This document shows, one piece after another, positions 7,704 to 60,738 of a stretch of 64,000 nucleotides of DNA. The notes under the pieces were generated by a model that was not told where the DNA came from, searched no databases, and was given only the letters and a program-made list of their open reading frames with translations. A program made the translations under genes and the position numbers. Every line of letters starts with the position of its first letter. The stretch's first letter is position 1. The stretch comes from Erigeron canadensis (taxonomy: Eukaryota; Streptophyta; Magnoliopsida; Asterales; Asteraceae). Where the stretch lies: the NCBI RefSeq assembly GCF_010389155.1, contig NC_057761.1, positions 16,990,501 to 17,054,500 on the forward strand, written 5' to 3'.

Positions 7704-8024
7704 TGTAGATGCAGATTCGTTGTGACAATCGCAACATAGATTTGATTATCGTTTATGTTTTAGGAACTATGTTTGTAATCATTTAAATAAGAACTTGTGT
7801 TGATATTTAATGATTACGTTTGAACTTCAATATTATATCTGTTTATGTTTTGTATTGTGTTTGTGTGTTATATATTGTTTTGCAGGTACAAGAACATAGA
7901 ATCAAGGTTTATAAGTGTCATAGAATACTTAAACGATGATTGGATGTTATGTACGAGCCAAATGAAGCTAAACGAAGAGTCAAAGCTCGAACCTCGTGCT
8001 GACGTCATCAGCATGTAGGAACAA

Positions 8025-8048
8025 CCTCGTGCTGACGTCAGCACGAGG
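8025..8048. promoter_or_regulatory. 24-bp perfect palindrome centred on TGACGTCA
   Basis: The half-site CCTCGTGCTGAC is followed by its exact reverse complement. The centre TGACGTCA is the classical CRE/C-box core bound by plant TGA-type and other bZIP factors. It lies about 76 bp upstream of the TATA-like box, a position that suits an enhancer. The same palindrome is intact in the 3' LTR (22097-22120) and has a single C-to-T change in element B (60394-60417). Confidence 0.85.
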
Positions 8049-8123
8049 CAAGTCGATTGACTTATTGTTTCGGGCCTAATCTTCGATTAAGGCCTAAGCC
8101 CACACGATCCAATACATAACTAG

Positions 8124-8130
8124 TATAAAT
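8124..8130 (+). promoter_or_regulatory. TATA-like box of LTR A
   Basis: TATAAAT lies in ACTAGTATAAATAAAAG, with transcription expected about 30 bp downstream, near 8155. The same box is at 22196 in the 3' LTR. Confidence 0.7.
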
Positions 8131-8399
8131 AAAAGACCTGATCTACGAAATTAGGTGAATCTTCGTTAATTGTTTCTAATCACTTTAGATCATTTTGATT
8201 ATGCACGAATCAAGGTTATTTGTTCCTTCGTGTGACCTCGTACATGAACCACAAGCCTTGTGCATCTCCTTGGGTTGGTTAATTGCTCATTAATCAGCAA
8301 AAGGTAATAGCAATCTAGTTATCTCAAGAGGATTCCACACTCTTGACATAACGAATCACATCTTATTACGATCCACGCAACAATAGGACACCTTACAAG

Positions 8400-8412
8400 T
8401 GGTATCAGAGCC
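8400..8412 (+). other. primer binding site, initiator-Met tRNA type
   Basis: TGGTATCAGAGCC begins two bases after the 5' LTR. This is the standard plant Ty1/copia site complementary to the 3' end of initiator methionine tRNA. Confidence 0.95.
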
Positions 8413-8499
8413 CTAAGGTTGATTACCAGAAGGTTTAAGATCGTTTGATTCGCTATTGATTGCAAAATCAATTCGAAATTCGTGTTTTTAGTCAAGTTC

Positions 8500-8770
8500 G
8501 TGCTCTTCTTCGCATGACTTCGTGCTTACGTCAGCACGAGGTAGTGTATGCTAAGTGCTTCGTGTGACGTGCTACTCGTGTGACTTCGTGTCTGTCTTCG
8601 TGTCACGTGCTACTCGTGTGACTTCGTGTCACTTGCTACAAGTGTGACTTCGTGTCTGTCTTCGTGTTACATGCTACAAGTGTGACTTCGTGTCACATGT
8701 TACTCGTGTGACTTCGTGACGTACCTCGTGTCACGTGCACTTCGTGTGATCTCGTTTGACTTCGTGCCGA
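8500..8770 (+). repeat. leader minisatellite of element A (64-bp higher-order repeat)
   Basis: Between the primer site and gag lies an array of CTTCGTGTGAC-like words. The recurring block (G/A)TGCTAC(T/A)CGTGTGACTTCG starts at 8569, 8607, 8633, 8671 and 8697, so steps of 38 and 26 bp alternate and give a 64-bp superrepeat. The array includes G-box words CACGTG (near 8605 and 8732) and a TACGTCAGCACGAGG relative of the LTR palindrome at 8527. It lies in the transcribed leader, where packaging or dimerisation signals normally lie, so an RNA role is as likely as transcription-factor binding. Confidence 0.85.
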
Positions 8771-8817
8771 ACGAATTACTTGTTATTTCGATTGATTTGT
8801 TTACTGAAAGATTCGAA

Positions 8818-11531
8818 ATGACGACTATACCAGCTGCCGCAAACTCTCTTAATGCTCTACTTATCAGCCAGATGATCATACATGATCATGAGGTTGGTCG
8901 TGGAAACACACCTCCAAAATTGTTCCGTATGGAAAATTATTGGATGTGGAAGAAACAACTGACATGGAAATATGGCTTGTGATAACTCAAGGTTTTGATT
9001 GGCCTTCGTATGAGAAGAATGGAGTGATCGGTAGGTATACTTATGCTGATATGCCGATTGAAGAACGTAAAAGATACGCAATTGAGGGAAAGGCCTTGTC
9101 CACTCTTACTATGGCCTTCCCTCAAGATAGTGTACATTTGTTCAAAAAGTACACTACTTCAAAGAACTTATGGGACACTCTTGAAAGATATTGTGAGGGC
9201 GATGTAACCTTGAAGAATAATCGTATCAAACTCCTGAAGCGCCAGTATGAAGCCTTTAGTAGACTGAAAGGAGAATCTCTTGACGAGATTATTATTCGAT
9301 TCACTCATTTGACCACTGAGTTGTCGTATTTTGAGGTTGTTTATCTTCAAACTGAGCTAGTTGATAAGTTTTTGGACTCATTGCCTAAGACATGGACTGA
9401 TTATGTTCATCAACTTCAAGATGATCAGGAATACAGTACATGGGACTTTGAAAAGGTAGTTTCCAAGCTGAAGAACAGAGACATGAAAAGAAGAATTAAA
9501 GATACTCAGTTAGATTTTACACAAGATCCATCTTTATATCATGCTAAGTCTGTTCATTTAGCAAGCTCTAGCTCGGGAAACAATGCATTTCTAAGTGGTG
9601 CAGATGCTACACCAATAGTAGATGCTGAAGGTATTGCTGGATATGTTGCTTATGACAATGCACATACGAATGTTAAGAGCAATGTACAATCTTTCCACTC
9701 TATGCCAATGAGTATGAGTTCTGCAGAAGGTAGAATGAGTCTTTACTCAGCTTTTTGTAATGCTCATGAAGCATTTATCGGAGGGAAGATTACTGATCCT
9801 GCAATAATTGATGAGGATTACAATCAGATAGATCCTGATGATTTGGAAGAAATGGATCTACAATGGCAGCTAGCTATGCTCACTATTAAGGTCAGAAGAT
9901 TCACTCAGAGAACTGGGAGACCTATAGGTAATGGCACTAAAGGCTTTGACAAATCCAAGGTGAAATGTTATAACTGCGATGGATTTGGTCACTTTACAAG
10001 AGAGTGTCAACGACCTAAGAGGATTGATAATACCGTTGCTGGTCGTCAAAATTACAATCAAGGCGGTATTACTCCGAGTAATCATAAAACTCAAGCAATG
10101 ATTACATATCCTGCTACTCTACAACAGCCAGTTTCGTCACCATTTTCGGAGTCAAAGGCTGTTGTTGTTCAAAATCCAGATGGTACTTATCAATGGGATA
10201 CACAATCCGATGATACCTCGAATCATGCCTACATGATAGAATTATATGATGAGGTAGCTGCAACAATTGATTATGCTGTATACTCAAGTGAAGAAAGTGC
10301 ATCTGAGATAGCTCAGAAGAATGTATGTAATGTTGCTGAGACTGTAAGATCTGAGAGTGAACAAATGACAACAGTGAAAGCATCTGAAGAAAAGGAAGAG
10401 TCATCAAGTCCTGTTGATGACATTTCCATGAAGAGCATTGAAGAACAGATGAAGAACTTCATGAAAAGGACTTTAATTCTTAAGAAGGAAAGTAACGTGA
10501 CTAAAGATTCTGATTTACTTCTACAAAGAGACCAACAACAAGCTGAATTAGGTTTTAATCCAGATGAAGTAGTATACTACATGTTGAAAGACTGTGATAC
10601 TGTTTTCTATGATAAAGAAGTATCTATAAATAGGATTGAACCTAAATCAAAAATGGATAAAGTTTGGTGTGTGGAAAATAAAGAAGAATGGTTAGCTAAA
10701 CAAATTCCATATAAGGATAGACATTATGCTCCTTTTAAACCAGTAAAAACTATGGAAGAAGCAATACAGACGCTTGATACCATAAATGAAATGAAGGAGT
10801 ATGGTATACCAATCCCTGAAATAGAAAATGGTCAATCTAGAAAACAACAAGTAAAGAAGTGTTATACTTGTCGTGAGAAAGGCCATATAGCTATTGAATG
10901 CCCAAATAGGAAGGTCAAGAATCCTAAGAATGACAGTCAAGTCAAGTCAAAGGATGTTAGTGATATTCCTAATACTAAAGGGAAGGGTAAATTAGTTGAA
11001 CAAGTAGCTTCACCAAAATTTATGAGTGCATATAAAATGGATTATTATGAGTATGCAAAAAGACATCCTGATAATAAAAATGCACAGAATTATGTTAAGT
11101 TACTTAGAAATGTGTCATATGGAGAGTCTATGGTTACAGATCAAAGGATTAATTTCAATAGATCTAAGACTCCAAAACGACAGGGACCTTCACAGAATAC
11201 TACTTCTAGTAGTGTAAGTCCGAGTCATTCTCGTACACCTCAAAGGAGTAATTCACCTAGGAAGATGGCTTAGCAAAATCGATCTCCTCCTTCTAGAATC
11301 AATAGTTTGTCTAAATTCTATGATCAATTAGGGAGTCAACCTAGATTCGGTACTCACTCACCAAGGAATTCACCTCCTAAGACTCGTTTCACTTCACCTA
11401 AGAAACAGTCTGTGACACCATCTTCATCCAAGGCTCCTTTACAGAGCGATGGATGTTGGACCGAATTGATCATTAGAGATGAATTTGGAAAACCTAAACC
11501 TCAAAAGGTTTGGGTTCCATTCAGAAACTAA
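8818..11531 (+). pseudogene. gag of element A
   Basis: The first ATG in good frame is at 8818 (MTTIPAAANSLNALL), leading to PPKLFRMENYWMWKKQ, the N-terminal motif of plant copia Gag. A frameshift near 8945-8985 moves to the long frame 8940-11273. The UBN2-like capsid region shows KALSTLTMAFPQD, LWDTLERYCEGD and FTHLTTELSYF. Two CCHC zinc knuckles follow, CYNCDGFGHFTREC (about 9966) and CYTCREKGHIAIEC (about 10860), nearly 300 residues apart, which is unusual. The tail is Ser/Pro/Arg-rich. An in-frame TAG at 11271 and a frame change near 11525 separate it from pol. Confidence 0.9.
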
Positions 11532-12831
11532 CCATCTTATTGTCTGATGTGCAGGGAGAACCAAAGAAGCCTATAAGTCTTTGGTATGTTGACAATGGAT
11601 GCTTTCGACACATGACAGGGGACAAGAATGTTTTGTCCAATTATGAAGATGTAAATGGTTCGTATGTTAGTTTCGCAGGTCCCAAGGGCGGCTACATCTC
11701 GGGCCAAGCTGATGTTGTCAATGGGAAGATTACGCTGGAGAAAGTCAATTATGTGGAACAGTTAGCACATAATTTATTAAGTGTTTCTCAGATTTGTGAT
11801 AAGGGAAACAATGTCCATTCTACTGAGAAAGAAGCACTTATATTGAAACCAGGATATGTTATTCCTGAAGACTGGATCCTGCTGAAAGCTCCTAGGAAGA
11901 GAGACATCTATGGCCTTGTGTTAGGTGTTGATGATCCAAAGGAGTCTGTTTGCTTGTTATCGAAAGCAAACGAATCTGAATCTTTACTATGGCATAGAAG
12001 AATGGGACATATCAATTTCCGAAAAATGAATGACATTTTCAAACATGGTTTGGTTGACGGCGTTCCCATGAAATAGTTTGGAATGGAAGACAAATGTCTA
12101 CCTTGTCTGAAAGGTAAACAACAAAAGTCTGCACATAAACTGAAACAAGAAAATTCTATTGCCAATCCTTTCGAGTTACTTCACATGGATTTATTTGGTC
12201 CAGTGAATGTAAGAAGTATCGGTGGGATGTATTACTGTTTGGTGGTTACTGATGATTACTCGAGATTCTCATGGGTATTATTCTTAAATCGAAAGATGAA
12301 ACTCCGCAGATTTTGATAAATTTCTTTGTCAAAACTGAAAACATTTATGGAGTTCGTGTTAAGAGAATCAGGAGTGACAACGGAACTGAATTTAAGAATA
12401 ATGTGATGGATGTCTTTTGTTTGTCAAAGGGAATCCAACATCAATACAGTTCTCCGTATGAACCACAACAGAATGGAGTTGTTGAAAGAAAGAATAGGAC
12501 TCTAATCGAGACAGCCAGAACTATGCTTGCAGATTCAGGGCTTCCTAATATGTTTTGGGTGGAGGCAGTGAATACAGCTTGTCATATTTTAAATAGGGTT
12601 ACTGTAGTTAAGCGTCATAATAAGACATGTTATGAGCTTCTACATAAGAAGAAACCGTTACAGAATGTTGAACCATTTGGTGTACCGTGTACTTTCTTGA
12701 AGTATCTACCTCAGTCAAAGTTTGATTCAAAGGTTGAAGAGGGATTTTTCATGGGTTATAAACCGGGAACATCAATTCGACGGGTTTACAATAAACAGAC
12801 CGGCAAAGTTGATTTGGGAACAAATGTCTAG
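11532..12831 (+). pseudogene. protease and integrase of element A
   Basis: The protease active site reads LWYVDNGCFRHMTG, with Asp-Asn-Gly where Asp-Ser-Gly is usual. The GAG-pre-integrase zinc module LLWHRRMGHINFRKM...CLPCLKGKQ follows, interrupted by TAG at 12074. The integrase core has its acidic residues in LLHMDLFGPV, IRSDNGTEF and QQNGVVERKNRT. A frameshift near 12285 lies between the first two, and a TAG at 12829 ends the frame. The order protease then integrase, upstream of RT, defines Ty1/copia. Confidence 0.9.
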
Positions 12832-13322: not shown

Positions 13323-13343
13323 TTAAATAAGGACCTGACTAGT

Positions 13344-14947: not shown

Positions 14948-16979
14948 ATCTCTCAAAGAACTAATTTTGTAAGTTTGTGTCCATAAATAGCTAGAGTCAT
15001 AAAAATACAAAAAGAGTTCTTAGTGTCATAAAAACCATAAAATGTGAAAATCTGAAAATGACAAAAATATGAAGAGATTTAAGTTAATGCTGTAAGACGA
15101 TTAGAAGTGAGGATACTTAGCTTTTAAGTCTGCTTAATCGTAATATAACTGCTTAGTTCAGTGATTACAATTTGGGATATATTGGTAGACACAAAGTAGC
15201 AAGGTTTTCTTAAATCTGAACTTAATGTATACAATGTTCTTGTGGGAAACATATTCAGATATATGGCTGAGAATGCTTGCTTTTCAGTAATGAATTGATC
15301 TAGTCCTTAAATTTTGTGAAAGATCTAGCATTACTATAAGATTTGTTCAAAATATAAGCAAAAACCTCTACAACTCATGAGCATGAAAGCTAAATGTGAT
15401 ATTGTTTATGCAAATGAAATGAATGTTAATTGAGGGGCTAATGCGGGGTGTCTTTGTATACCTAGCCCACCTAAAGCTTCCAACTTGGGATAGGTTGTTA
15501 GAAATTCGCTACATGGGTCTCATAGAAAATTACGGGTTCCTTATAAATAATGAAATGCAGAAGCAAATAAGTTAAATCACAAAGTAATTAAATTCTGTTA
15601 TCTAAAAAGTGTCTCATGATTTGTTTAAGGATGTTTTTGAATATATATTGAATATTTGTTATCTTAGTGCTTGTATCGATTACGGAAGTATATCTGAATG
15701 TGGGTCACATAAGTTCGCAAACTATTCAATGGCATATTAGGCTACTCGGGTTACATGGTGACTGTCCTTGGCCAGGGTATGTCGAAAGTGTCATAACTCA
15801 AAGGAAACTGGAAGTACCGAGTGTTTAAGAGGACAAATATACCGGTAATTGTGGTTGGGTCACTATTCATAACTAATAATAAGAGAATTATTTCTCACTT
15901 GCAGACTTATGTAAATGCTAATCTGATCTAATCTGCAAAAACTTAGAATTTCTTGTAAATAAATAAAGTAGTTTAGTTTTTTATTTTATTTTATTTTATT
16001 TTTATTTTTATTTTGTTTTGTTTTCGTTCTTATTTTTATTTTTATTTTTGTAATAAGTGTCAGTTTGTGTGTCAAACTAGTTCTTATTGCACGAGAGATT
16101 TGATAAGCATTAAAAGTTATAATTCTTAGTGAATTATATAAATCTTGTTCCTTACGGTATAAATGTTTAAAAGATGGATTTTCTAATTAATACATAAGTT
16201 GTTTAATGTAGAAAATGAAATGTTTTGAAAATTGAAAAGTCAAAATATTTTTGAATGTGTTTCAAGTAAATTTTTGAAATTTCAATTGTTTTTGGTTGAT
16301 AAGTATGCTTGACAAAGATTGGACTTGCCTTAGATCTTGTAATGATTGCTAGGTTAAGATTTTGGTTGTTTTGCATATTTATGATATTCTATTGTTTTTG
16401 GTGCATTGATGAAGTTTGTTAAATGTGTAGGTTACAGATAATAAACTCATTTTACAATGAAATTGGCATCAAAATTTCAGATTGTGATTGAAGGCAAAAT
16501 TGTTTTCGCTTGCTTATTAGAATTGCATTGCGACGGAAAATAAAAGATGCTCAGAAATTACAAGAACTGTGCTACAAGGATGGATTGCCTTGTATTTATT
16601 AACCTAATACTTAGTGTGATAGGTTACCATTGTATTATCAAGATCACAACCTAAGATGTAATGTGATAGGTTGTTGATATGATATTTTGATGTATTGTAA
16701 TGCATTATACATTAAATATGTTTTAATGTAAGTTTGATTTGTTGAGTTAAACATCAATGAAGAAATGATCGATTTTATGTCAAGATAATAATGTAAGATT
16801 TATTTGATACATTATTGTGATGACAAGTTAGTACGGATGATTTATGATTGTATATTCGAGTAGATACAGGTTTTTAGTAACGAGTATCTACAGGTTTATG
16901 TTTCTAGAATTTTCGTAATTTTTCCTTGTTTAGAATTCTGGAAAATTCACGAAATTTGGCTAAGGAATGAAGCCTGTGT
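14948..16979 (+). other. noncoding spacer between pol and accessory module (element A)
   Basis: About 2 kb without a credible ORF on either strand. It is AT-rich, contains a (TTTTA)n tract (15977-16050) and no recognised domain. An equivalent spacer precedes the accessory ORF in E, so this is part of the family's architecture rather than an inserted element. Confidence 0.7.
15977..16050 (+). repeat. TTTTA/TTTTTA microsatellite
   Basis: A pyrimidine-rich simple repeat of TTTTA and TTTTTA units, interrupted by TTTTGTTTTG. It lies in the spacer of element A. Confidence 0.9.
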
Positions 16980-17002
16980 GAATAAAATACTGAAAAATTC
17001 GA

Positions 17003-17100
17003 AGTCCTTCGTGCTGACTAACGCACGCCTCGCGCTGACGTCATCACGAAGCCCACGAACTGAGTGTTCGGCTCGGCCCATGAGGATTCGAATATAAATA
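17003..17100 (+). promoter_or_regulatory. internal promoter-like block upstream of accessory ORF
   Basis: The block contains TTCGTGCTGACTAACGCACG, CGCTGACGTCATCACGAAG (TGACGTCA at 17036-17043), CTCGGCCCATGAGG and TATAAATA at 17093-17100. The LTR promoter has the same order: CGTGCTGACGTCA..., a GGGCC/GGCC stretch, then TATAAAT. In the LTR the second TGACGTCA to TATA distance is 91 bp; here it is 57 bp. It probably drives a separate transcript for the accessory ORF. No transcript data are available. Confidence 0.55.
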
Positions 17101-17705
17101 TGGGTTATTACTATTCATTAATTACCATTAATCGAAAATTAACCCTAAGTAAATCACACGAACTTGCCTCCCTTGTGCGCACTATTCATTCGTATCTCTT
17201 TTCGATCGATTTCATCCTCGTTTCGTGTTTGTTACTTAGATTTGTTGGTACTTTCACGATCTATGATTGATTATTGATGTTTTGACTATAAGAACTAACG
17301 ATTTCATGTCGTTATAATGCCCAAATTTTGAATCCTCTTCACGTGAACAGTAACTAGGACGAACCAAGAATTTAATCTTCAATTTTTGATGATTTGGACT
17401 TAAAATTGGACTTAAAATTGGATCAATTGATGTTTGTACACGTTAAATCTATCATAAGTTCATGTTAACATACTTAAAATCAAGATTAATTGAAGATAGT
17501 ATGTTTCGGTCACTATTCACACGAAGAACATCAAGAACACGAACCACTTCGTGTTCATCGAATTTGTTTCGATTTTTTGGTTTTCTGGGCATTCACGAAT
17601 CATAAACAAGTCCACGATGATGTTTTAAAAGTGATTTTGATCAATTTTAACATCATATGGAGATGTTTTTACTTCGTGTTTCTGGGTTTCATTTGAAGCT
17701 CGTGC

Positions 17706-17745
17706 TGACGTCATGACAAAGAAGATCTTCTTCGTGATGACGTCA
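17706..17745. repeat. composite palindrome: two TGACGTCA sites flanking AAGAAGATCTTCTT
   Basis: TGACGTCA is present at 17706-17713 and 17738-17745. Between them lies the 14-bp perfect palindrome AAGAAGATCTTCTT (17719-17732). The structure lies about 75 bp before the accessory start codon, inside the likely leader or intron. Confidence 0.85.
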
Positions 17746-17804
17746 TCATGAAGCAGTCGAGCCAAAAACCCTAATTTTTTGTGTTTTCTTGTCGTTTTTG
17801 TCTG

Positions 17805-17817
17805 TTTTTGTGCAGGT
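17805..17817 (+). promoter_or_regulatory. splice-acceptor-like site before accessory ORF
   Basis: The pyrimidine-rich GTTTTTGTCTGTTTTTGTGCAG ends at 17815, two bases before the ATG at 17818. This is a good match to a plant 3' splice site and suggests that the accessory ORF is expressed from a spliced RNA. The donor could lie in the internal leader (17100-17500) or in the LTR. Confidence 0.6.
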
Positions 17818-20309
17818 ATGGCAGGACAAGGTACTAATTCTCGTGTGTTCGTCAAGGAGCACAATGCTGCACTCGATCTTAGCGTTACATAGACAGGGTG
17901 CACACCAGAGTTTCATGGTGTCCTACAGTTTCTTGCACGTTCTCGTGTACATTTTGCAGTGACAGAGAACCCTCCGTTGGTGATAAGTCTCATTCGGGAG
18001 TTTTGGAACTCAGCCCGTTCAGTGTAGATGGGTGATCATATGTACATTCGCACTACTGTTGGAGGACGTTCATTCTCGTTCTCGGCTGGAGACTTACGGA
18101 CGATATTACACTTGGGTGATGTCGAGATAGAGCAAGGTCCGACTGACTTTTCAGAGGAATTTTGTGACGGTGCTCTACGTCGTATGGGTTATACCGGTGC
18201 TATTTCTCACCCATACTTCAGGAATCATCTTCGTGGCAAATAGAAGCTGCTTGCTTATTATTTGTTGAGGTCCATTAGTCATCGGAGTACAGGCTATGAC
18301 CAGATGAATATACAAAACGCTTCTCAGATGGTTGCTTTGGTGCTGAATAAGCCGTATAGCTTTTCTCAGTACATTTTTGATAATTTGGAGAAGCAGTTGA
18401 GGTCATTTGGTACAGACAAGAAATTCTTTCTGTTTCCAAGATTTGTGTTGATTATCATTCGTCACTTTGCAGCTGAATTGCCATTTGATGGTCCTACGTT
18501 CAATTTAGGTCGTCCTACTCATAAGGCATTTGTGGAAAGCATGAAGCATTTGTCGGGAAGAAATGTTCCGGTTGATGTTAATAATCCACCATTGTTCGGA
18601 CATTTGATCAATCCTAACTATGTTGCTCCTCGACAAGGTTGGGAAGATGAAGAACCCGTTGCTGCTGCTGCTGGTGGTGATGATCAGGCTCAAGAAAATC
18701 CTGAAGAAGAGCGAGCTGATTAGTTTGAAGGACTCAATGATGTTCCTTTATATGCTGGAGATCTGGAGCATGATTCAGATATGGATGCTCTTTTGGAGGA
18801 TATTGATGATCCTGCAAATCTTGTTCCACCAACTACTGGAGTTTCTACTTTTACCTCTGCTCCAGTTGGTGTTGATGTTGGACCTTCTGAATTGCCTGTT
18901 AATGTTGTTGAGAATTCAGAAGATGAAGAAGAGGAAGAGAGATTGCCGAAGCGAAGAAGAAGACAAGGAAGATCTCAAGCTGAAGTTGATAGAGATTTTG
19001 TTGTATATCAAGCTGCTATGGAGAGGTCTCATGCACCTAATGTTGGTGATACTTCATTGGTTGCTGCTTTAAGAGCTTCTGACTCTGAGATTCCTGTTTC
19101 TGTGTCTGCTACTTCTCTTGCTGGTGTTGCTGTTGGGGAGAGAAGGTCGAGACCAAAGTTTATCATAAGAGGAATTGGTTCTCGTGCACAAGTTGTTACT
19201 AAGGCTACAACAGTTACGATTCCTACTGCTCCAGAGTCTACAGTTCGTCTAGAGCCAGCGCCAACACTTGTTTCTCCTAGGCCATCGTCTGCTCCTATTC
19301 AGGCGACAGTTCCTGTTTCTACAATCATGGGACGTCTGTTGGCTCCTCTGCAAAGACCTCAGATGCCTCCCACAGGAACTTTTAGTGCTCGTATGCTTTT
19401 TTTGAAGCTACGATGCCACCTCATGCCTCTACATCTGATGTTGCTTCTACGTCACGTCCAGTTGCTCCTGTTCAAGTGCAGCTGAGTCATTTGTTTTCTG
19501 AGAAGACGATGTTAGAGATGAGAGTCACAGCTTTGGAGAATCAGCTAAAGCTCCAAGCTGCTAAGCATCAAGAAGAGATGGCGTAATGACAACTCTTGTT
19601 CATTCTCTTGGTTCTAGACTTGACTAATTCTTGGCTCAAGGGGGAGATAAAAGTGGTTGTAACGATGATGAGCTTGCAAGGATGATGATCATAAAGATCA
19701 AGATCGAGCTCAAGATCCAAATCAATGACAACAAACAGATGGTGAGCCAGAGAATCAGAGTCAAGGTCAAGATGCTGGTGATGATGCTAGGGATACAGAG
19801 ACTGCAGATATTCAGGGGGAGTCATCAAGACAAACTGAGTCAGAGATTGCTGGTACAGCTGGTGCTAGTACTTCTAGGACTCAAGATAAAGGCAAAGCTG
19901 TGATGGCCGCTCCAGATGCAGATCCTGATGATCCTAATAATGATGATGAGGAAGATTCCAATTCAGGTAACTCCGATTATAATTCTGATAGAATAGAAAG
20001 GGAGATTCGAGAAAAGCTAGTGAATGATCCTCATAATCATATAGAAAAAGAAAATCTTAGCAAAGAAAAATCTACTCAGGATAGTGAGTTAACTAAAACT
20101 GATTCTACTTAGTAATTGTGCATAGACTAGAAAAGAGATTGGGTTATGATCCACAAGCTCATATGAGAGCTAGAGCAGAGATTATGGATTATGATGATTA
20201 TTATGATCCAGGATCACTTAGGGATTAAATGAAAGAACAGTCAGGGTTAACTCATACATCTTCAGAGTCAGAGTCAGATTCGGATTCAGATTCAGATTAT
20301 GAACCTTAG
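17818..20309 (+). pseudogene. accessory ORF 1 of element A
   Basis: The product starts MAGQGTNSRVFVKEHNAA. The N-terminal half is a helical domain: FLARSRVHFAVTENP, EFWNSARSV, FSFSAGDLRTILHLGD, LLAYYLLRSISHRSTGYDQ, FDNLEKQLRSF and FLFPRFVLIIIRHFA. An acidic chain, a basic LPKRRRRQGRSQ patch (possible nuclear signal), a Pro/Ser/Thr-rich stretch, a coiled coil (EKTMLEMRVTALENQLKLQ) and an Asp/Ser tail ending DSDYEP follow. The N-terminal domain resembles plant-transposon accessory proteins often mis-named as synaptobrevin/longin-like. No signal peptide or membrane segment is seen. Stops lie at 17890, 18025, 18241, 18721, 19625 and 20226, plus frameshifts near 19390 and 19580-19680. Confidence 0.75.
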
Positions 20310-21775: not shown

Positions 21776-22469
21776 TGTAGATGCAGATTCATTGTGACAA
21801 TCGCAACATAGATTTGATTATCGTTTATGTTTTAGGAACTATGTTTGTAATCATTTAAATAAGAACTTGTGTTGATATTTAATGATTACGTTTGAACTTC
21901 AATATTATATCTGTTTATGTTTTGTATTGTGTTTGTGTGTTATATATTGTTTTACCGGTACAAGAACATAGAATCAAGGTTTATAAGTGTCATAGAATAC
22001 TTAAACGATGATTGGATGTTATGTATGAGCCAAATGAAGCTAAACAAAGAGTCCAAGGTCGAACCTCGTGCTGACATCATAAGCATGTAGGAACAACCTC
22101 GTGCTGACGTCAGCACGAGGCAAGTCGATTGACTTATTGTTTCGGGCCTAATCTTCGATTAAGGCCTAAGCCCACACGATCCAATACATAAATAGTATAA
22201 ATACAAGACCTAATCTATGAAATTAGGTGAATCTTTGTTAATTGTTTCTAATCATTTTAGATCATTTTGATTATACACGAATCAAGGTTATTTGCTCCTT
22301 CGTGTGACCTCCTACACGAACCACAAGCCTTGTGCATCACCTTGGGTTGGTTAATTGGTCATTAATCAGCAAAAGGCAATAGCAATCTAGTTATCTCAAG
22401 AGGATTCCGCACTCTTGACATAACGAATCACATCTTATTACGATCCATGCAACAATAGGGCACCTTACA
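21776..22469 (+). repeat. 3' LTR of element A
   Basis: It starts TGTAGATGCAG and ends CACCTTACA, and is exactly as long as the 5' LTR. Differences from it are mostly C/T and G/A changes. The first TGACGTCA is altered to TGACATCA, while the 24-bp palindrome (22097-22120) and TATAAATA (22196) remain. Confidence 0.95.
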
Positions 22470-31034: not shown

Positions 31035-31250
31035 TATTTGTCGAAGTAATTGCTCGACATTCATTAGACTTCATACATTTTGCAAAACTGATGGTTTAAC
31101 CTTACATTTCTTCTATTTGTTGAGGTTTAAGCTCGACAAATATAACAAGATCTCAATTTGTTGCCAAAATCAATTTTTCCATAAAGTACTTTTCTGGGCA
31201 ACATGTTTCTCCAAAACATGTTGTTTGCCGAGATTTTAGCTCGGCAAACA
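31035..31250. repeat. cluster of inverted repeats with TTTGYCGAG/CTCGRCAAA word
   Basis: The best hairpin is TGTTTGCCGAG (31222-31232), a 7-base loop, and CTCGGCAAACA (31240-31250), an 11-bp perfect stem. A second, TATTTGTTGAG (31114-31124), 7-base loop, CTCGACAAATA (31132-31142), has one mismatch. A third, degenerate copy lies at 31037-31060. ACATGTTT/AAACATGT at 31201-31221 forms another stem. All three main copies keep the 7-base loop. Confidence 0.85.
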
Positions 31251-36237: not shown

Positions 36238-36245
36238 CAGTCTTT

Positions 36246-37716: not shown

Positions 37717-37863
37717 AGTGTGAACGCCGTGTTCACAGAAGGTAATGACTCAAATATGGTTTCTAATGATTCTTGTGAAGTGTCCAATCAGGTACAGGTC
37801 AAAGGGACGCAAAATGAAGACGAAATGGACAAAAACGCAATTCTGCATGCTGAACAGCAGGCA

Positions 37864-37968
37864 CCAGCGTCGCTGGAACCTACCAGCGCCGCTGGTGACC
37901 CCCCAGGTAGCAACCAGTGCCGCTGGCTGCACAGGTAAGCGCCGCTGGGACCATCCCAGCGCTGCTGG
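37864..37968. repeat. CCAGCGCCGCTGG cluster within the F gag-protease ORF
   Basis: Five copies start at 37864 (CGTCG variant), 37883 (exact), 37914 (CAGTGCC variant), 37936 (TAAGCGCCGCTGG) and 37956 (GCTGC variant). In the translations they read as SAAG, QRRW or APLV depending on frame. Confidence 0.92.
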
Positions 37969-39265
37969 CGAGCCCGGCAGAGATGATTCGCGCAATATTT
38001 CGTTCAGAGAAAGAGAACTGGACATCCAGCTCGCATCCAAATGCATAATAGAAGATGGAGGAGATCCGGACAGAAAGGAAGAAGTTGAAGATCCCGACAG
38101 ACCGGATGACGAGAAGCCGGGAATGCAAGCATCTATATATCCAGGAAGTTTTCTAATCCCTTGCACTATTAATAATGAATATTTCTCGAGTGCATTAGCT
38201 GATTTAGGGTCAAGTATTAATGTTATGCCTACTGTGATTTTTGAGAAACTTACCCTTTGTTTGCTAAAACCCGCCAACATGAGTAGTCGGTTAGCCGATC
38301 AGACTTATCGACAACCCAAGGGGATTGTTGAACGAGTCCATGTTAGGGTTAAGGACTTGGAATTTTGGACTGAGTTTGTTGTGCTTGATTCGGTTAGTGA
38401 GTTAGTGACACCCCTAATCTTAGGACGACCATTTCTGCATGATGCAAATGCTACCATTGACGTGCTTAAGCGAGAGATATCATTGTCTTTTAATGGTTAC
38501 AGGATTAAAGTGTCCAACTTAAAAAATGAGAAAACACCTCACCGAATTGAAGCCGAGAACGATGCCCTAAGTGAATTGAGGAATCTGGTAGAAATTAGGA
38601 CAGATGCTTGGAATGATGGAGAGATAATCGAGTCAGAAGAAAAATTCGACAAGTGTAGTATGAATAGCTCTGTTGTATTTGACTTTGAACAAATTGAAGA
38701 TGAAACCATTGGGGAAGCTTGGGATCGTATAATGGACTTGGCCAATTGTTTTCCGCAAGGAACGTTTTGGGATGAAGATATAATCAACTCATTTTATTAC
38801 GGTCTAGGAGATGTAGAGAAGGGCACGTTAGATAAAGTAGCAAAAGCAAATTTTCTAAGCATCTTAATGACGGAGCAATTTCGCATTCTAGAAGAAGAAG
38901 ATTATGAGAAGTTGAATTTGAAGGAATTGGTGGAACTTACAAGAAACCTAAAGTCAAATTTCAAGGTAAAGAGGTTCAAGCAAAAGGAAGAAGAAGATGT
39001 CATAGAAGCATGGAAACGAATGGGAGATTTATTAAGAGACTGCCCGGAGGGGACATTTGATGAAGAAGAAATTCTAGAAATCTTCCATTCCGGACTTAAG
39101 GAAGAAAGTAGGAATTGTTTCTATAAAAGCAAGCTTGAACCACACTTCTGTCCATCAAAAGGTATAGCAGCAATATTTAAGTTGACTCTGGAAGAAGAAA
39201 CTGCTCAAAAGAAGGAAGAAGTCGAATTGTGCAAGAATCAGAGAACTGCACCTGCTGTGGAGCAA

Positions 39266-39329
39266 CCAACACTGCTGGTACCATGCCTGGAGGAAACCAG
39301 CGCTGTTGGACCACCACCAGGGCCGCTGG
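39266..39329. repeat. degenerate CCAGCGCCGCTGG cluster near the end of the F ORF
   Basis: Copies start at 39266 (CCAACACTGCTGG), 39297 (CCAGCGCTGTTGG) and 39317 (CCAGGGCCGCTGG). The plausible coding frame differs before and after this cluster. Confidence 0.8.
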
Positions 39330-39600
39330 TACCCCCTGCAGCCCAGTTTTTCGCGAATCTGAACCCATTTCCGTCCAATCCAGCCCTAAAAGTCAAACAC
39401 CGATCGACGTGGAGATGGTTGAAGCTACTGGAGCACAAAGTAACTCAGAAGAAGTGGAGGAGAAGCAAGGAACGAACGTCAAGGAAGCCGTAAGCAACTT
39501 TGAGCGTTACTCCACGGGTGCCGGCCCTAGGCGTAACCCACATTCCTCACCTTAGTTCCTTGGCCGAGTCCGACTGAAGACTCGTTAAACTTAGCGCTTA

Positions 39601-39986: not shown

Positions 39987-40090
39987 CAAGCGCCGCTGGA
40001 GAGCATCAGCGATGCTGGTAGTGCAACCTGGGCACCACCAGCGCCGCTACACACACACTAGTGCCGCTACCCACCTTTCAGCGCCGCTCA
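39987..40090. repeat. CCAGCGCCGCTGG cluster in the F 3' UTR
   Basis: Copies start at 39987 (CAAGCGCCGCTGG), 40006 (TCAGCGATGCTGG), 40038 (CCAGCGCCGCTAC), 40058 (CTAGTGCCGCTAC) and 40078 (TCAGCGCCGCTCA). The outer bases are less conserved than in the LTR clusters. Confidence 0.88.
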
Positions 40091-41548: not shown

Positions 41549-42999
41549 TGATGAGCGTCCAAATTGTGATAAAAACCCCTATTGAAAGGCTTCATTTCTA
41601 TGTCTAAATGAGTTAATATTCCGGAACTCTTGGTACTTAATGAATTGCATGTTTATATAGGTTCACGGAAGATGCGAGAGAGGTTAAATGGCATCAAGTA
41701 ACTCAGGAGGGAAGCCTATGATGATTACAAGACACAAAGAAGCGATTCGGAGCTGAACAAAGATGCGGGAGGTGCAGCAGGAACCACCAGCGCCGCTGGC
41801 CAGTCATCTACTAGCGCCGCTGGAGAAATCCAGCGCTGCTCCCTCAAGCATCCCAGCGCCGCTGGTCCATCAGGCCCACTCACCAGTGCCGCTGGTAAGC
41901 CCACCAGCGCCGCTGGTGAGCCCAGTTCAAGAGACCGACTCTGCTTCCTATTTAAGTCAAACTAACCCTCAAAACCCTAAAAAGAGAGCCGAAACAGCAG
42001 CCCTAACCGCCCAACAACACCCCTAGGTCGATTTTGCAGATTCCAAGAAGGTTTTGGAGCTTCTAACGCCTTCCGATCTTCATCCTCGGTCTAGATCTAG
42101 TTTTCTATTTATCTTTTATTCGTTTGAACTATGTCTTTCATATTTTCAGACTTTGTTATTCCATTAATAATGCTAGGCTAGGGCTGGATCCATGTTTATT
42201 AGTAGGTCATGTTATTATTGGTTTAATTCTGATGGTTGTCTATGATCATACACTAGGACTAACATGCTAGGACAGAAAACGACTAGTCGGTCTTTAACTA
42301 GAAGTAAAAAGTGATTCACTTGTAACCGAGGGATCCAGAACCATAATAACTAGATTGAATTGAACATGATGCTTAACAATGTCAGACAAGATCCTTTGAC
42401 TTGGAAACAAGCACTGTGGTCACTGGAGGGAATTATATCTGGTCATGGCTTAAGAGCCGGGTAACTAAAAGATGAACTTGTAACACAAACTTTAGGCCGT
42501 TTAATGCTTAGACAATGAATCTAACGAGAATTTGTCTATAGAGTAGTGTGAGTCTAGCGACAACACTAGTAACTTAGGTAAGGTGAATCTAACGAGAATC
42601 TGAGCCCTGACGAAGTTTCCAATAGTATAACAAACCAGTAGAACTAGTATTTGGTCGTACCATGAGATCTGAGATGTCCAAACAAGTATTTTAATTTAAT
42701 TACTGTTATTTGTTTTTTCAATTCTATTTTCAGGTTAAGCCCCTCACTACTAGTATGTGGCTTAGAGTTTATTTTCTGCAATTAATTACTTAAAATAGGA
42801 AATCGTGACAAACCCCCAACCTTTAGGATTACACTTAGGTATAGATTAAACAGTGCAACGCGTCCCTGCGAACGATCCTGTAGCTTACCACTAGTCTATA
42901 CTACATCAACCGGGTTCGCTGCCCGTAAGTGTGGTTTTGTTTAGTTTAGTTACTTGTACAACATATAAATTTAAAGACCCGTAAAACAAACGCATATCA
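41549..42999 (+). repeat. 3' LTR of element F
   Basis: It is homologous over its length to 34670-36237, apart from a deletion of about 100 bp and small indels. Its palindrome cluster is 41787-41916, with copies at 41787, 41811, 41830 (degenerate), 41853, 41883 and 41904. Compared with the 5' LTR it lacks the second unit and has an extra unit near the end. AGAGG follows at 43000-43004. Confidence 0.93.
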
Positions 43000-43425
43000 A
43001 GAGGACCAGCCCCACCTCTCGCCTTCAGTTCGTGCACTTGAGTCTAGATCTCCTAGGGACACGAACTTGGAAGCTCAGTTAAGTACTTATGCCAGAACAA
43101 GCGGAGAGGGACCCACTTTGTATGACCTTCTAGGACAGCTTGGAAGTCCTGCCTTAGCTAACATCATGCCAGCTTTAGCCGCAGGCAATAGTCCTTAAAC
43201 AGAGACTGAGAGATAGTATGAACGCTAAGGTAACACTGTTGTTTCTCAGGATCAACCTGAGACTGTATTAACGGGCATTCTTAGTGACCCCGATGTTGTT
43301 AGTGGTGTTGCCCTACAACAACTTCCGGACAGTGATTTATCACAGTCTAGGACACAACTCGATTCTGGTTGTGAAGCCAATGAATCTGAAACTGCTGGTG
43401 ACGGTCTATCCCGAGGATCTGCAGG
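43000..43425 (+). repeat. tandem duplication inside accessory ORF E, unit 2 (right part)
   Basis: The sequence resumes AGAGGACCAGCCCCACCTCT and matches 33352-33770 of unit 1 up to CTATCCCGAGGATCT. This shows that element F inserted after the 1.27-kb duplication had formed. Confidence 0.87.
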
Positions 43426-55032: not shown

Positions 55033-55955
55033 TATAAGTCCCAACTCAAGAGATGGTACTAACTAAAGACATCTCTATGTCAATGGTGAGAGTTCTTTGC
55101 AATATAAACGCTGACCTGGAGACTACCAATTACAGTGATTGTATACCAAGTCCTTGAATAGATTACTTAGCAGGTGACTAAAGGAAAGACAATGCAATAA
55201 GTAAATATAACAAAGTAAAATGGTGAGACCAAGTTGTAATTTTCAAATGTATTTTATTTATTGATGCTAAATAAAATACAAGGTTGTTGCGGAACCAAGA
55301 TAATACATAAGTGTAAATATCCTAACAACCTATGAAATACAAATGATCTATACTCGAAAATTCTCTTTAACAATCGAAACACTTAAAGTTGTGAAGTGTT
55401 CCCTTTTATGATTGAGAGAATATTGCACAAGTACACCAAGAATATTGCAAAAGTCTGAATATGCAAAGTTATATTCTTGTTGTGCAAAGACCTCTATTTA
55501 TAGACAAAGTTGGCATTGGGAATCTAACTTTGTCGTATAGATATGGTTGACAGCATTTAAGGAAACTAAGTGAGTTCCTTTGAAATGCTTGATAAGGTAA
55601 GTCAAGACATTACTTTATCTAACCTCCTTTATGCACTTTTGTACTTTAATCATAGACAAATGATATTGTCTTGTATAAAGCTGCATAAAGCAAAAAGGTC
55701 TTCTTCGTAAACAGTGTAAAGCATTGTAAAGGCTTTAAACTGATATTCTCCTGTTTTAATCTGTGTAGAATGCCAACTGGGCTTCGCTGCCATTGTCATT
55801 CTCTATCTTCCATTTGTTGTCTTCGACGTCAATTGGAATGTCTTCAGTTACATTAACTGTACGTTGCAACTGGACTTCAATATATTTTTGGACAAATCTT
55901 CTGGTCTCCAGATGCAACTGGAGACTGGCCAGTTTGGACGAAACTGGTTCTAATA
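55033..55955 (-). repeat. 5' LTR of element C
   Basis: On the minus strand it runs from TATTAGAACCAG to a poorly defined end near GGGACTTATA. It shares its body with the isolated LTR at 24556-25461. The outermost 100 bp (55860-55955) contain CAACTGGAC, GATGCAACTGGAGACTGGCC and AAACTGGTTC, the family word. A TATA-like CTATAAATAG (minus strand) lies near 55496-55505. Confidence 0.8.
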
Positions 55956-56757: not shown

Positions 56758-56880
56758 GTTTGTGATTTCAAAAACTTCCAAAAACTTCCAAAACTTCAAA
56801 TGTATTTTAAACTTCCAAAACTTCAATATGCTCAAGTTTGTGATTTCAAAAACTTCCAAAACTTCAAATGTATTTTAAAT
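56758..56880. repeat. tandem repeat in inverted-repeat spacer, 78-bp period
   Basis: GTTTGTGATTTCAAAAACTT at 56758 recurs at 56836. Each is followed by CCAAAACTTCAAATG and TATTTTAAA. The rest of the spacer to 57190 is AT-rich with no ORF and includes the 3' UTR of D. Confidence 0.85.
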
Positions 56881-57193
56881 ATTTTCATACACACGTTTGA
56901 TGATTTTCCAATGATTTTCAATCAATTGAAGTTCGGTGATTAGTTTGCACATGAGCGATTAATTCACTCCATGAACTTCATTATCGCCGATGAGTTTTAA
57001 CCCCGGAGTATTCACTTCTTTCATTAGATAGTGAGGGTATTTTGTGTGATGATGTTTTCGTGCAAACACTTTTGAAGAAAAAAATAAAGAAGATCTTTTT
57101 GTTATTTTTCAAAATTTTATATTTTTGTATTTGATTTTGTCTTTTCAAATTTTGTATTTTTGTTTTTCAAGAATTTATTAAGTACAAAATAAG

Positions 57194-58999
57194 TTAAGGT
57201 TCAAGATTTAACATGCCAAGCTTGGAGATAAGAAAGTTAAACCTCTTTTCGTCCAATGGTTTGGTGAACAAATCTGCAAGCTGATAGTCAGTGCCCACAA
57301 AGTAGAGCTCGATGTCACCTTTCTCAATATGATCTTTGAGAAAATGATATCTAACATCAATATGCTTTGATCGAGAGTGGTTTACAGAGTTGACAGCAAT
57401 AGCAATGGCATTCTGAGAATCACAATAGATAGAGATATGATCATATTTCAAACGATAATCAGTTAGTTGCGTTTTCATTCATAACACTTGAGCACAACAA
57501 CTAGCCGTAGCCACATATTCAGCTTCAGCTGTTGATAGTGACATACAATTCTGTTTCTTGGAAGACCAACTCACAATTTTATCACATAAATATTGTAAAG
57601 TACCGGAAGTGCTCTTGCGATCAAGTTTACAACCTGCATGATCTGCATCTGAATAGGCAGTTAGATTGAATCCAGTATCCCTTGGATACTAGAGACCTAA
57701 ATTGGGTGTACCCTTCAGATAACGAAATATTCGTTTCAGGGCTTGAAAATGTAAATCAGTTGGAGCAGCTTAATACCTAGCACACATACATGTTGCAAAC
57801 ATTATATCTGGGCGAGATGCTGTGAGATACAACAATGAACCAATCATACTTCGATATCTCTTTTGGTCAAATGGTTTCCCATTTTTATCAGCATTTATAT
57901 TTGTTCGAGCAGCCATTGGGGTAGAATTTGAAGAACATGAAGTCATATCAAACTTTTTCAACATATCATTTATGTATTTACCTTGTGATATAAAAATACC
58001 ATTTGGTAATTGTTTGATTTGAAGACCCAAAAAGTAGTTCATTTCCCTAATCATACTCATTTCAAAATGATTAACCATCAGAGATGAAAAGTTTCGACAA
58101 AATGTTTGACTGGTTGACCCAAAGATAATGTCATCAACATATATTTGGACAAGAAGAACATGCTTACCTTGTTTGCGAATGAACAGGGTAGGGTCAATTG
58201 TGCCTTTGGTAAAGCCACCTCTTAATAAGAAAGTAGTTAAGGAATCATACCATGCGCGGGGTGCTTGCTTAAGACCGTAGAGAGCCTTGTCTAACCTGTA
58301 GACATGGTTTGGCCTTTTAGGATCAACAAAACCTTCTGGTTGTTCAACGTAAACTTCTTCTTTGAGGTCACCATTCAAGAAAGCTGTCTTCACATCCATT
58401 TGAAACACAGTGAAGTTTCGGAATGCGGAATAAGCTAAGAAAATCCGAATGGCTTCCATTCTTGCAACTAGAGCAAAAGTTTCGTCGAAGTTAACACCAA
58501 GTTGTTGGCAATAACCCTTTGCAACAAGTCGAGCTTTGTTCCTTACTACCACTCCATTTTCATCCTTTTTGTTCTTGAAAATCCACTTTGTTCCGATTGG
58601 TTCATCTTTTCTCGGATTTGGAACTAATCTCCATACTTTCAGTCTTTCAAACTGAGCGAGTTCTTCTTGCATCGCTTTCACCCATTCTGGATCACGAAGA
58701 GCTTCAGAGACAGTTTTGGGTTCGATGTTGCTGAGAGAAAGTGCAACAAGACACTCGTTTACTGAAGTACGAGTAGTTACTCCGGCTTGTGGATCTCCAA
58801 TAATTTGATCAATAGGATGATTTTTCAGCATACGTGACCATTTGCGATCATGAGGAATAGGATCTTGTTGTTGAACATCAACATCATCATCATTAAAACC
58901 TGAGTTTTGTTGAGAGATGGATTCATAGCTTGGTAGAACAGCTTCCTCATAGGATGGATGATCGAAGTCAAGTGGCACATACACATTTGGAGTGTTCAT
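57194..58999 (-). pseudogene. reverse transcriptase and RNase H of element D
   Basis: The best-preserved RT in the window: [54 protein letters not shown] (Leu for Pro), [53 protein letters not shown] and [15 protein letters not shown] run without a break to a TAA near 57770. RNase H then has two or three stops (CTA/TAG near 57690 and 57479) but keeps STAEAEYVATASCC, YCDSQNAIAIAVNSVNHSRS, SKHIDVRYHFLKDHIEKGDI and QLADLFTKPLDEKRFNFL. Confidence 0.92.
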
Positions 59000-60055
59000 C
59001 GGGTTTGTTGTCTGAGTAAATTGGGTAGGTTGTTCTTGAATATTTACTTGAGAAGAATTATCAGGAGAGGGTGGTGAAGAAGAATCATTAGAAGAGGATG
59101 AAGAACTACTACTAGAAGATGTAGCACCTTGCTCAGAAGAACTTGATGATGATTCATGATTGTTGTCAGGAACTGGATTATTTGTCTAAATTGGTTCAAT
59201 GATGACTCGAGGTTCTTCATCATGAATCGGTTTGGAATTGTAGAATTCTTCAAAAAGAATATCTAATTCATCACTTGTTGGAGTTGGAAACTTCTTGAAT
59301 TTGGATGCTAAAGTAGAAGTCCTTGATGAAGTACTTGAAGCACTTGGATCATTACTTGTTGGTAGCAAACTTTCTTGTTCAAATATCATGCCCGACATCT
59401 CATCAAACCAAACATTCATTGTTTCTTGAATTGTATTTATTCGGCGATTGTAGATTCGGTAGGCAATCAATGTCTTGGAATAACCAACAAAGTAACCTTC
59501 ATCACCTTTCTTCTCGAACTTTCCAATATTCTCCCGATCATTCAAAGTATAACAAACACACCCAAAGATATGAAAATAGTTGATGTTGGGTTTGCGTTTG
59601 TTAACAACCTCATAAGGAGTCTTCTCGAAATGCTGATTGACAATGGACCGATTCTGAGTGTGACAAGCAGTGTCAACAGCTTCAGCCCACATATTGGAAG
59701 ACAACTTGGAATAAGCAAGCATTGTTCTTGCAGCTTCCACTAGCGTTCGATTTCTCCTTTCAACGACACCGTTTTGTTGTGGGGTACGAACTGCAGAGAA
59801 TTGGTGAGTAATACCCTTGGATTTACAAAACTCATCAAAAACGGCATTTTTGAACTCAGTTCCGTTATCCAAACGGATGTAACGAACTGGAAGTTGAAGA
59901 TTTACTTGAGTAGAGGTGATGAAATCAATCAAAATCTGTGTTGTTTCATCTTTGGATGCGAGAAACTTGACCCAAGTATATCTTGAATAATCATCAACAA
60001 AAACCAAGATGTATTTCTTCCCATTTCGCCTTTGTACTTTCATTGGCCCACAAAG
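59000..60055 (-). pseudogene. integrase and linker of element D
   Basis: The open frame 60043-59186 begins inside the integrase core at LCGPMKVQRRNGKKYILVFV (the first Asp lies just beyond the B insertion), followed by LDNGTEFKNAVFDEF and QQNGVVERRNRTLVEAARTM. The region FHIFGCVCYTLNDRENIGKF and EGYFVGYSKTLIAYRIYNRR completes the C-terminus. A TAG at 59186 lies in a Ser-rich linker that continues to 59000. Confidence 0.9.
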
Positions 60056-60738
60056 TGTAAGGTGCCCTATTGTTGCGTGGATCGTAATAAGACGCGATTC
60101 GTTATGTCAAGAGTGCAGAATCCTCTTGAGATAACTAGATTGCTATTGCCTTTTGTTGATTAATAAGTAATTAACCAACCCAAGGAGATGCACAAGGCTT
60201 GTGGTTCGTGTAGGAGATCACACGAAGAAACAAATAACCTTGACTCGTAAATTCGTGAATAATTCGAAAACAATTAACAAGGATTAACCTAATTCCGTAG
60301 ATTAGGTCTTGTATTTATACTAGTTAAGTATTGGATCGTGTGGGCTTAGGCCTTAATTGAAGATTAGACCCGAAACAATAAGTCAATCGACTGCCTCGTG
60401 CTGATGTCAGCACGAGGTTGTTCCTACATGCTGATGATGTCAGCACGAGGGACGACCTTTGACTCTTTGTTTAGCTTTGTTTGGCTCGTACATAACATCC
60501 AATCATCGTTTAAGTGTTCTACGACACTTATCAACTTTGATTCTATGTTCTTGTACCTGCAAAACAATATATAACACACAAACACAATATAAAACATAAA
60601 CAGATATAATATTGAAGTTCAAACGTAATCATTAAATATCAACATTAGTTCTTATTTAAATGATTACAAACAAGTTCCTAAAAACATAAACGATAATCAA
60701 ATCTATGTTGCGATTGTCACAACGAATCTGCATCTACA
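60056..60738 (-). repeat. 3' LTR of element B
   Basis: The plus-strand text starts TGTAAGGTGCC and ends CATCTACA, the complement of the A LTR ends. It is 683 bp against 694 in A. It keeps the 24-bp palindrome at 60394-60417 with one CG-to-TG change in TGACGTCA. Confidence 0.93.

Follow-up and report, generated by a model that had tools for sequence, protein, structure and literature searches.

Repeated sequence words in LTR retrotransposons of an Erigeron canadensis locus: Sirevirus-like dyads, a gypsy-type counterpart, and a hexamer within coding DNA

Introduction

Short sequence words in many copies are known from several kinds of transposable elements, and they are considered here in the copia and Ty3/gypsy long terminal repeat (LTR) retrotransposons of one stretch of Erigeron canadensis DNA, C1:16990501-17054500 (64,000 nucleotides, the window in what follows) of an assembly of 426 Mb and 356 contigs. 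The closest described system is that of the Sireviruses. According to the available text of Bousios et al. 2010 (PMC2829016) each of 13 Sireviruses possesses its own palindromic motif, two of them sharing one sequence; this repeated motif (RM) is termed Sirevirus-specific and has a CGG-CCG core, absent in Tnd-1. The RM boxes are palindromic, high-copy, and element-specific, sit in the LTR ahead of the TATA box and again ahead of ENV, and go together with CpG islands, and an internal ENV promoter is discussed there but never conclusively identified. Palindrome clusters in the LTR cis-regions of maize Sireviruses are cited, after Bousios 2016, as small-RNA hotspots in the available parts of PMC5311732 and PMC10760457, the latter describing Ty3 elements as generally without an obvious peak of such structures. 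As far as the available texts go, short, many-copy words differing among related elements are also described for the VANDAL transposons and their VANC proteins (Hosaka et al. 2017 PMC5735166; Sasaki et al. 2023 PMC10398659), U3 boxes and subfamilies for Tnt1 (PMC3601003), and family-specific repeats for plant gypsy elements of the Retand kind, with antisense TRP28 open reading frames (ORFs) and an ORF thought to bind DNA (PMC11963269).

The elements of this locus share parts of these designs. The copia element A and its second copy B are close in most respects to the published Sirevirus RM design, and a second copy of element E also has boxes before env; family-specific words are already part of that precedent in the available text of PMC2829016. 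An earlier note on this DNA had set its words apart from the precedent as family-specific and entering coding DNA; the first half of this distinction falls away, since element-specific motifs had been published, while the entry into coding DNA beyond codon expectation and the gypsy-type case do go further. Beyond the precedent are the dyads of element F and its relative F2, which are gypsy-type and not copia as Sireviruses are, the coding hexamer of the copia element C, and other hexamers in relatives of C; the core in A, TGACGTCA, also differs from CGG-CCG. F has U3 dyads, in contrast to the general picture for Ty3 elements. Unlike the present elements, VANDALs are DNA transposons whose motifs are confined to non-coding DNA and have a known binder, and the Retand repeats, unlike short U3 dyads, are long tandem units placed after pol and before the 3' LTR. 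The literature, at the level of titles and abstract openings, gave no report of a word dispersed through the coding DNA of retrotransposons, in a search whose scope left subscription papers mostly outside.

The words are read here, with roughly even confidence, as recognition sites for sequence-specific double-stranded DNA-binding proteins, kept as cis-regulatory boxes. This reading is favoured because such proteins would account for where the words lie, for their dyad form and spacing, for their use in either orientation, and for their persistence.

Word Enrichment in the Window

The element map was built from self-comparison and Pfam matches, and the flanks examined were 210 kb to the right of the window and DNA to its left, which holds F2 and the second E copy. 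As a family-wise control the top 6-mer of each region, both strands counted, was judged against the maximum found in each of 300 dinucleotide shuffles, which leaves the choice of word free of prior selection. In this unbiased scan four regions exceeded all 300 maxima: A with CACGAA/TTCGTG (33 against 5.5 expected), C with AACTGG/CCAGTT (38 against 5.0), F with CCAGCG/CGCTGG (27 against 1.6), and the gypsy piece gyp0 at 1-3300 with CTGAAG (18 against 2.8), each 0/300. No word at this level was found in the three stretches of long interspersed nuclear elements (LINE1, best 4/300; LINE2; LINE3), in the isolated LTR, in E (5/300) and its further piece 43001-46070 (1/300), in the LTR of C taken alone (20/300), in D (3/300), or in B as far as it lies in the window (9/300). 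Perfect hairpins with a stem of 8 or more and a loop of up to 20 were in excess in A (21 against 6.7), C (15 against 3.2), and E (8 against 2.0), each 0/40, and weakly in the isolated LTR (3 against 0.5, 2/200), with no clear excess in F (6 against 3.3, 5/40), D, gyp0, or the LINEs. In a 274-kb scan 69 of 136 scanning windows reached the threshold, a figure that is no tally of word-bearing elements because the windows overlap and many of them consist of simple repeats (of A, C, TA, or other kinds).

The observation from which this work started, that at least five LTR families each carry their own repeated palindromic word, is thus partly confirmed. Repeated words of their own stand for A, C, and F, are weak in the isolated LTR, and in E occur once per strand in the window and strongly repeated only in its second copy. 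The U3 dyads of A and F and a few hairpins in C and E are palindromic; the leader words of A and B are one-directional, and the words of C show no excess of facing pairs. That the words differ completely is too strong a statement, as two of them are enriched in gyp0 when its left extension is included, and entry into coding DNA is seen in C and F, not in A. Comparison with dinucleotide-shuffled DNA bears the words out in A, C, F, and gyp0, and words persist in other A/B, E, and F-type copies: the dyad in all six A/B-family LTRs in view, the E word in the second E copy, and the F dyad in F2.

Dyads and Leader Arrays of A and B

Element A (7704-22469, plus strand) has a gag ORF of 793 amino acids with Retrotran_gag_2 and two zf-CCHC stretches, and its copia reverse transcriptase (RT) matches RVT_2. 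The 5' LTR (7704..8397) holds dyads at about 7992-8015 and 8025-8048 and the putative TATA box TATAAATA at 8124, and the 3' LTR (21776..22469) a dyad at 22097-22120, with a polypurine tract (PPT) octamer at 21766 just before it. The two LTRs are 96.4% identical, and the perfect 24-bp dyad CCTCGTGCTGACGTCAGCACGAGG is present in both (8025-8048, 22097-22120). B (60056 onward, minus strand) is complete when the right flank is included and there contains TTCGTG 30 times; the dyad of its 3' LTR (60056..60738, minus strand) lies at 60394-60417 and has one central change. Over the window and the right flank the 24-bp dyad, with 0 or 1 mismatch, was found in 6/6 LTRs of the A/B family.

In the leader of A (8398..8840, plus strand) the Sirevirus primer-binding site core TATCAGAGC at 8403, after the 5' LTR, is accompanied by a one-directional TTCGTG array, with 13 of 13 copies in sense; in the leader of B 14 of 14 run in one sense. 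The region before env in A (16940..17820, plus strand) contains 12 TTCGTG/CACGAA words and 3 copies of TGACGTCA, its dyads resemble those of the LTR, and they are followed by TATAAATA at 17093, which could be an internal promoter of the env-like ORF; another TATAAATA at 15542 has no dyads. The ratio of observed to expected CpG in A is 1.10 in the LTR, 1.53 in the leader, and 1.46 in the pre-env region, against 0.52-0.65 in its other parts. The coding DNA of A holds TTCGTG 2 times against 2.2 under a synonymous null, that is, without excess. Between A and B identity is 72-73% in the leader, 79.5-83.4% in the pre-env region, and 75.6% in the first 0.8 kb of the env region, against 93.7% in gag (a 1.6-kb piece) and 94.5% in pol.

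The Sirevirus RM layout is thus present in A, with palindromes in U3 upstream of TATA and again upstream of ENV, together with three Sirevirus PPT octamers AGGGGGAG (19639, 19814, 21766). The AT/TG attachment site after the terminal PPT is not found in A, where AGGGGGAG-TC-TG stands at 21766-21777, and neither is the CGG-CCG core.

Dyads of the Gypsy-Type Element F and Its Relative F2

F (34670-43000, plus strand) has a gypsy-type gag (Retrotrans_gag, 5e-19) and a weak protease match (Asp_protease_2, 0.0022, under the family cut-off), flanked by a 5-bp target-site duplication AGAGG found by eye; since no RT was found in its scanned ORFs, it is probably a non-autonomous gypsy element. It contains 24 dyads with no more than 3 mismatches from CCAGCGCCGCTGG, against a mean of 0.24 in mononucleotide shuffles. 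Six lie in the U3 of each LTR: at 34908-35035 in the 5' LTR (34670..36238), followed by the putative TATA box TATTTAAG at 35068, and at 41787-41916 in the 3' LTR (41550..43000). The ORF with the protease match (37724..39493) carries a cluster of five between gag and protease (37864-37968) and one of three after the protease (39266-39329), and a further four follow the ORF (39987..40090, all on the plus strand). Neighbouring dyads are spaced at close to two, three, or four turns of the helix; periodicity at 10.5 bp has an R of 0.66 (P 0.001 against uniform distances), as computed from 15 of 19 distances after four 3'-LTR distances duplicating those of the 5' LTR were dropped. The LTR pair differs, besides other changes, in two dyad units, one of 19 bp and one of 21 bp, that have been lost and gained. 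Inside the ORFs of F the word CCAGCG occurs 9 times against 2.1 with codons and dinucleotides kept (0/800), and all three frames are used (3/4/2).

The relative F2, about 4.7-7.2 kb to the left of the window, is only 42% identical to F in gag protein and 44% in protease, and it contains 11 dyads of the F type at the same mismatch limit, beside gag and after the protease; a weak twelfth match at window position 849 is outside F2. Nucleotide similarity of F to F2, at an E-value of 1e-3, amounts to six short pieces (36-88 bp), and five of these cover dyads. F and F2 carry the palindromic-box design of Sireviruses into probable Ty3/gypsy elements, the box being kept while protein identity dropped to about 42%.

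A Hexamer throughout Element C

The copia element C (48850-55990, minus strand; its 3' LTR was not seen) contains 38 AACTGG/CCAGTT words in U3, coding, and post-pol DNA, with a hairpin at 49013-49034. Five words are in U3, at 55775..55947 (minus strand) upstream of the putative TATA box CTATAAATA near 55503, none in R-U5, 7 after pol, and the rest in coding DNA and in the leader and gag; density peaks at 8.8/kb in the weakly conserved linker between integrase and RT and is 2.75/kb in RT. Six coding ORFs (1512 codons) hold 24 words, about 6 being expected under synonymous permutation (family-wise 0/500) and 11.7 under the strict null that keeps codons and every dinucleotide (0/800), and the frames are used 10/8/6. 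The flanks of the words are nearly uninformative, information falling sharply beyond the hexamer. Opposite-facing neighbours were not in excess at 5-30, 30-100, or 100-300 bp; the unit of C outside the few hairpins is therefore a lone hexamer in either orientation.

Two simple origins were rejected. Tandem duplication finds no self-repeat in C, and CpG decay of an older AACCGG should have split equally into AACTGG and AACCAG, while C has 38 AACTGG, 12 AACCAG, and 0 AACCGG. In codon comparison with D and A, 4 and 9 of the 24 words are alignable and 0 and 1 are shared, too few for a statement on synonymous gain. The scanned ORFs of C, whose 3' end is not in view, contain no candidate word-binding protein.

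Other Words and Shared Words: gyp0, the Isolated LTR, and Relatives of C

The Ty3/gypsy pol piece gyp0 (1-3140, plus strand), detected by Pfam and the 6-mer scan and absent from the elements of the earlier note, has 16 of its 18 CTGAAG words (1-3300) in one sense. Joined by inference to its left extension as a single element, it is enriched for both CTGAAG (29 against 5.1) and AACTGG (22 against 4.0), both 0/300. Strict family specificity is weakened by this double enrichment and by the presence of the F dyad in F2.

The isolated LTR (about 24526-25505, plus strand), homologous to the LTR of C, carries CTGAAG words at 24658-24724 with weak statistics: 5 against 0.65, yet outside its six top words in the unbiased scan. 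The two LTRs are 83% identical over a 144-bp R-U5 stretch and less similar in U3, where the words differ, AACTGG in C and CTGAAG in the isolated LTR. We take this to be like Tnt1, presumably with its U3 repeats upstream of TATA and a U3 more variable than R-U5; we know of no dispersal of the Tnt1 U3 repeats along the element body.

In the right flank TCAGCA is frequent in X2 (45 in 9.0 kb) and X7 (21 in 5.0 kb), and AAGCTG in X4 (30 in 8.3 kb), within approximate boundaries drawn from homology and ORFs. Among 18 regions AACTGG reaches 5.3/kb in C and next 2.1/kb in gyp0, TCAGCA 5.0 and 4.2/kb in X2 and X7 and next 1.6/kb in A and B, and AAGCTG 3.6/kb in X4 and next 2.5/kb in D. Coding counts under the strict null were 22 against 12.2 in X4 (0/400), 38 against 21.9 in X2 (0/400), and 18 against 12.3 in X7 (4/400), and like the word of C these words are orientation-free. 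A tree built from 8 local RTs separates the group of C, X2, X4, A, and B from that of D, D2, and X6 (support 100/99); X7, having no RT match, is outside the tree. The D-family word CAACAA is simple and borderline (D2 28 against 20.2, 4/400). Scans of viral contigs and genome contigs gave no confirmed relatives.

Element E

E (29990-46070, interrupted by F) has three hairpins upstream of its env-like ORF (31111..31250, plus strand): a degenerate one at 31111-31145, one of other sequence at 31199-31223, and one formed by TTTGCCGAG/CTCGGCAAA at 31222-31250. Each of these two words occurs once in the window and neither is among the six top words of E. A second copy (E2), about 25 kb to the left of the window and 91-94% identical in the env part, contains TCGGCA 8 times and CTCGGC 7 times, each against 0.1 (both 0/300), with three E-type hairpins inside or adjoining the stretch that matches E. 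The 3' LTR part of E that was read (45658-46070) has no such word; at the 3' end AGGGGGAG-AT-TG stands at 45648, so E too looks like a Sirevirus relative. A and E have extra ORFs downstream of pol and before the 3' LTR (17820-21391, 31551-34665, and 43001-45640), and those scanned gave no clear Pfam family, the top hint being Bromodomain at 0.057.

Interpretation and Rival Explanations

The interpretation offered in the earlier note, which named binding by an element-encoded protein, RNA packaging, and silencing as possible roles, is partly supported, protein binding being favoured by the dyads upstream of TATA in A, B, and F, the roughly helical spacing in F, and the C hexamer in either orientation. 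Enrichment, position, orientation, distribution among the elements, and persistence in other A/B, F-type, and E copies are observed; binding by a protein, the identity of that protein, and the consequences of binding are inferred. The words come in two layouts. Dyad arrays (A/B, F, F2, part of C, and E2) combine close-set palindromes in U3 upstream of TATA with internal clusters, before the env-like ORF in A/B and around the protease in F and F2, and in F whole units of about 20 bp are gained and lost; such arrays would most likely be bound by dimeric transcription factors driving the element. In the second layout, dispersed half-sites (C, more weakly X2, X4, and X7), a single hexamer is spread in both orientations through LTR, coding, and post-pol DNA, which would presumably let a bound protein cover the integrated copy, for example keeping it open against silencing. 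We assume MYB proteins as candidate binders for AACTG and bZIP proteins for TGACGTCA. Words common to a gypsy piece and the copia element C incline us to host factors, and the change of word among close relatives to a co-evolving partner.

Persistence in the leader speaks for binding sites: of 13 TTCGTG words in A, 7 remain intact at the corresponding position in B, where 0.1 would be expected under the same drift as the rest, a figure that an alignment anchored on the words may have inflated. Several results weigh against this reading. Elsewhere persistence of TTCGTG is near chance (pre-env 4/12 against 3.3, 5' LTR 1/2 against 0.9), and it is the shorter TCGTG that persists better (9/15 against 5.0 and 5/6 against 2.9, respectively). 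The central CpG of the dyad is gone from the LTRs of B, and the pre-env TATAAATA of A reads TATATATA in B. The U3 of F is no CpG island (observed/expected 0.65), and the dyad distances of F2 (20, 21, 30) reflect a tandem unit, with R 0.92 at 10.5 bp but a best period of 9.4. C is known here from one copy. The coding excess of gyp0, nominally 0/2000, is not significant family-wise and vanishes under the strict null (53/800), for which reason only its element-wide excess is claimed, and the words of X2 and X7 are strongly frame-biased (X7, 15/18 in one frame) and therefore partly protein-driven.

It is very improbable that the words act at the RNA level, folding the genomic RNA by complementarity or tagging it for Gag. 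Sense coding RNA, compared with codon- and dinucleotide-preserving swaps, is indeed extra-stable in C (z -4.65) and A (-7.5), as in B (-7.6), X2 (-5.3), X4 (-2.9), X7 (-8.1), and D2 (-4.1), marginally so in X6 (-2.0) and the env ORFs of A (-1.8), and the leader arrays of A and B are transcribed and one-directional. In C, replacement of the word codons loses 28.4 kcal/mol of folding energy and replacement of matched codons 11.6 (sd 12.8), which is a weak argument for RNA. Against this stands that the stability of C is unchanged when words are fixed and the rest shuffled (z -4.9) and is therefore a property separate from them, that summed word-word pairing probability is 2.49 against 2.98 in word-keeping shuffles, with no facing preference, and that the coding RNA of A is structured without the word. 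RNA pairing was thus rejected as the main cause of the words of C, and RNA packaging, proposed earlier, is not supported because the U3 copies, being upstream of the putative TATA, are no part of the 5' leader, and the words of C pair no more than in shuffles. No stability excess was found in D (-0.3), F (-1.3), gyp0 (+2.4), X3 (-0.4), or two of three LINE sets (0.1 and 0.3; the third gave -2.9); extra-stable coding RNA (8892-14947, 49483-54863, and further copia ORFs) is a trait of most copia elements tested and not of the gypsy pieces.

Silencing has a published basis, since in the available parts of PMC5311732 and PMC10760457 small-RNA hotspots fall on Sirevirus palindromes, and hairpins read by the host as a by-product, as proposed for maize, would fit the hairpin excess of A, C, E, and the isolated LTR; this reading leaves the gain of a target without reason, and the lone hexamers of C form no hairpins, so that we regard it as unlikely. 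Equally unlikely is anti-silencing of the VANC kind, in which a family protein binds its own word and removes methylation: words differ among the related C, X2, and X4 as VANC motifs do among VANDALs, and extra ORFs follow pol in A/B, E, X2, and X4, but in the available texts VANC motifs are in non-coding DNA while 24 words of C are in ORFs, no DNA-binding family appears in the scanned extra ORFs of A and E, and gyp0 and C have words in common. Origin of the words by array slippage, duplication, or biased amino-acid and codon use agrees with unit gain and loss in the F and A/B arrays, with the single-frame words of X2 and X7, and with the loss of the gyp0 coding excess under the strict null; it is improbable as a general account, given that C and F pass that null, C lacks a self-repeat, and the AACTGG/AACCAG split is unequal.

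If the words are binding sites, they would point to the factors that switch the elements on or keep them open, and being short, known, and countable in any plant genome they are simple to test. The coding words of C would then mean that retrotransposon coding DNA is also selected as a binding platform, biasing codon-based dating and selection tests. A wider proposal, tentative and rather unlikely, is that many plant copia and gypsy LTR retrotransposons write one recognition word along their whole length, synonymous coding sites included, so that a DNA-binding factor of the host or the element marks the integrated copy; the word would change between related families (AACTGG, AAGCTG, TCAGCA, CTGAAG) and sometimes be common to unrelated ones, each genome holding a vocabulary of self-marks under turnover.

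Other Features of the Locus

The remaining parts of the window are a copia fragment, D (57205-60055), and LINE stretches with RVT_1 or zf-RVT at about 4060-7700, 25510-29990, and 46071-48550. Two LINE stretches in opposite orientation, 4257-6352 and 46071-48170, are 97.6% identical over 2.1 kb, which points to recent copies. In the right flank (continued coordinates) the gypsy-like X3 (151341-162200), whose LTRs measure about 3 kb, abounds in AAGTAC and AAGATC words, among them the palindromes AAGTACTT and AAGATCTT, and at 236632-259217 a direct repeat of 11.3 kb with 98% identity stands nearly head to tail.

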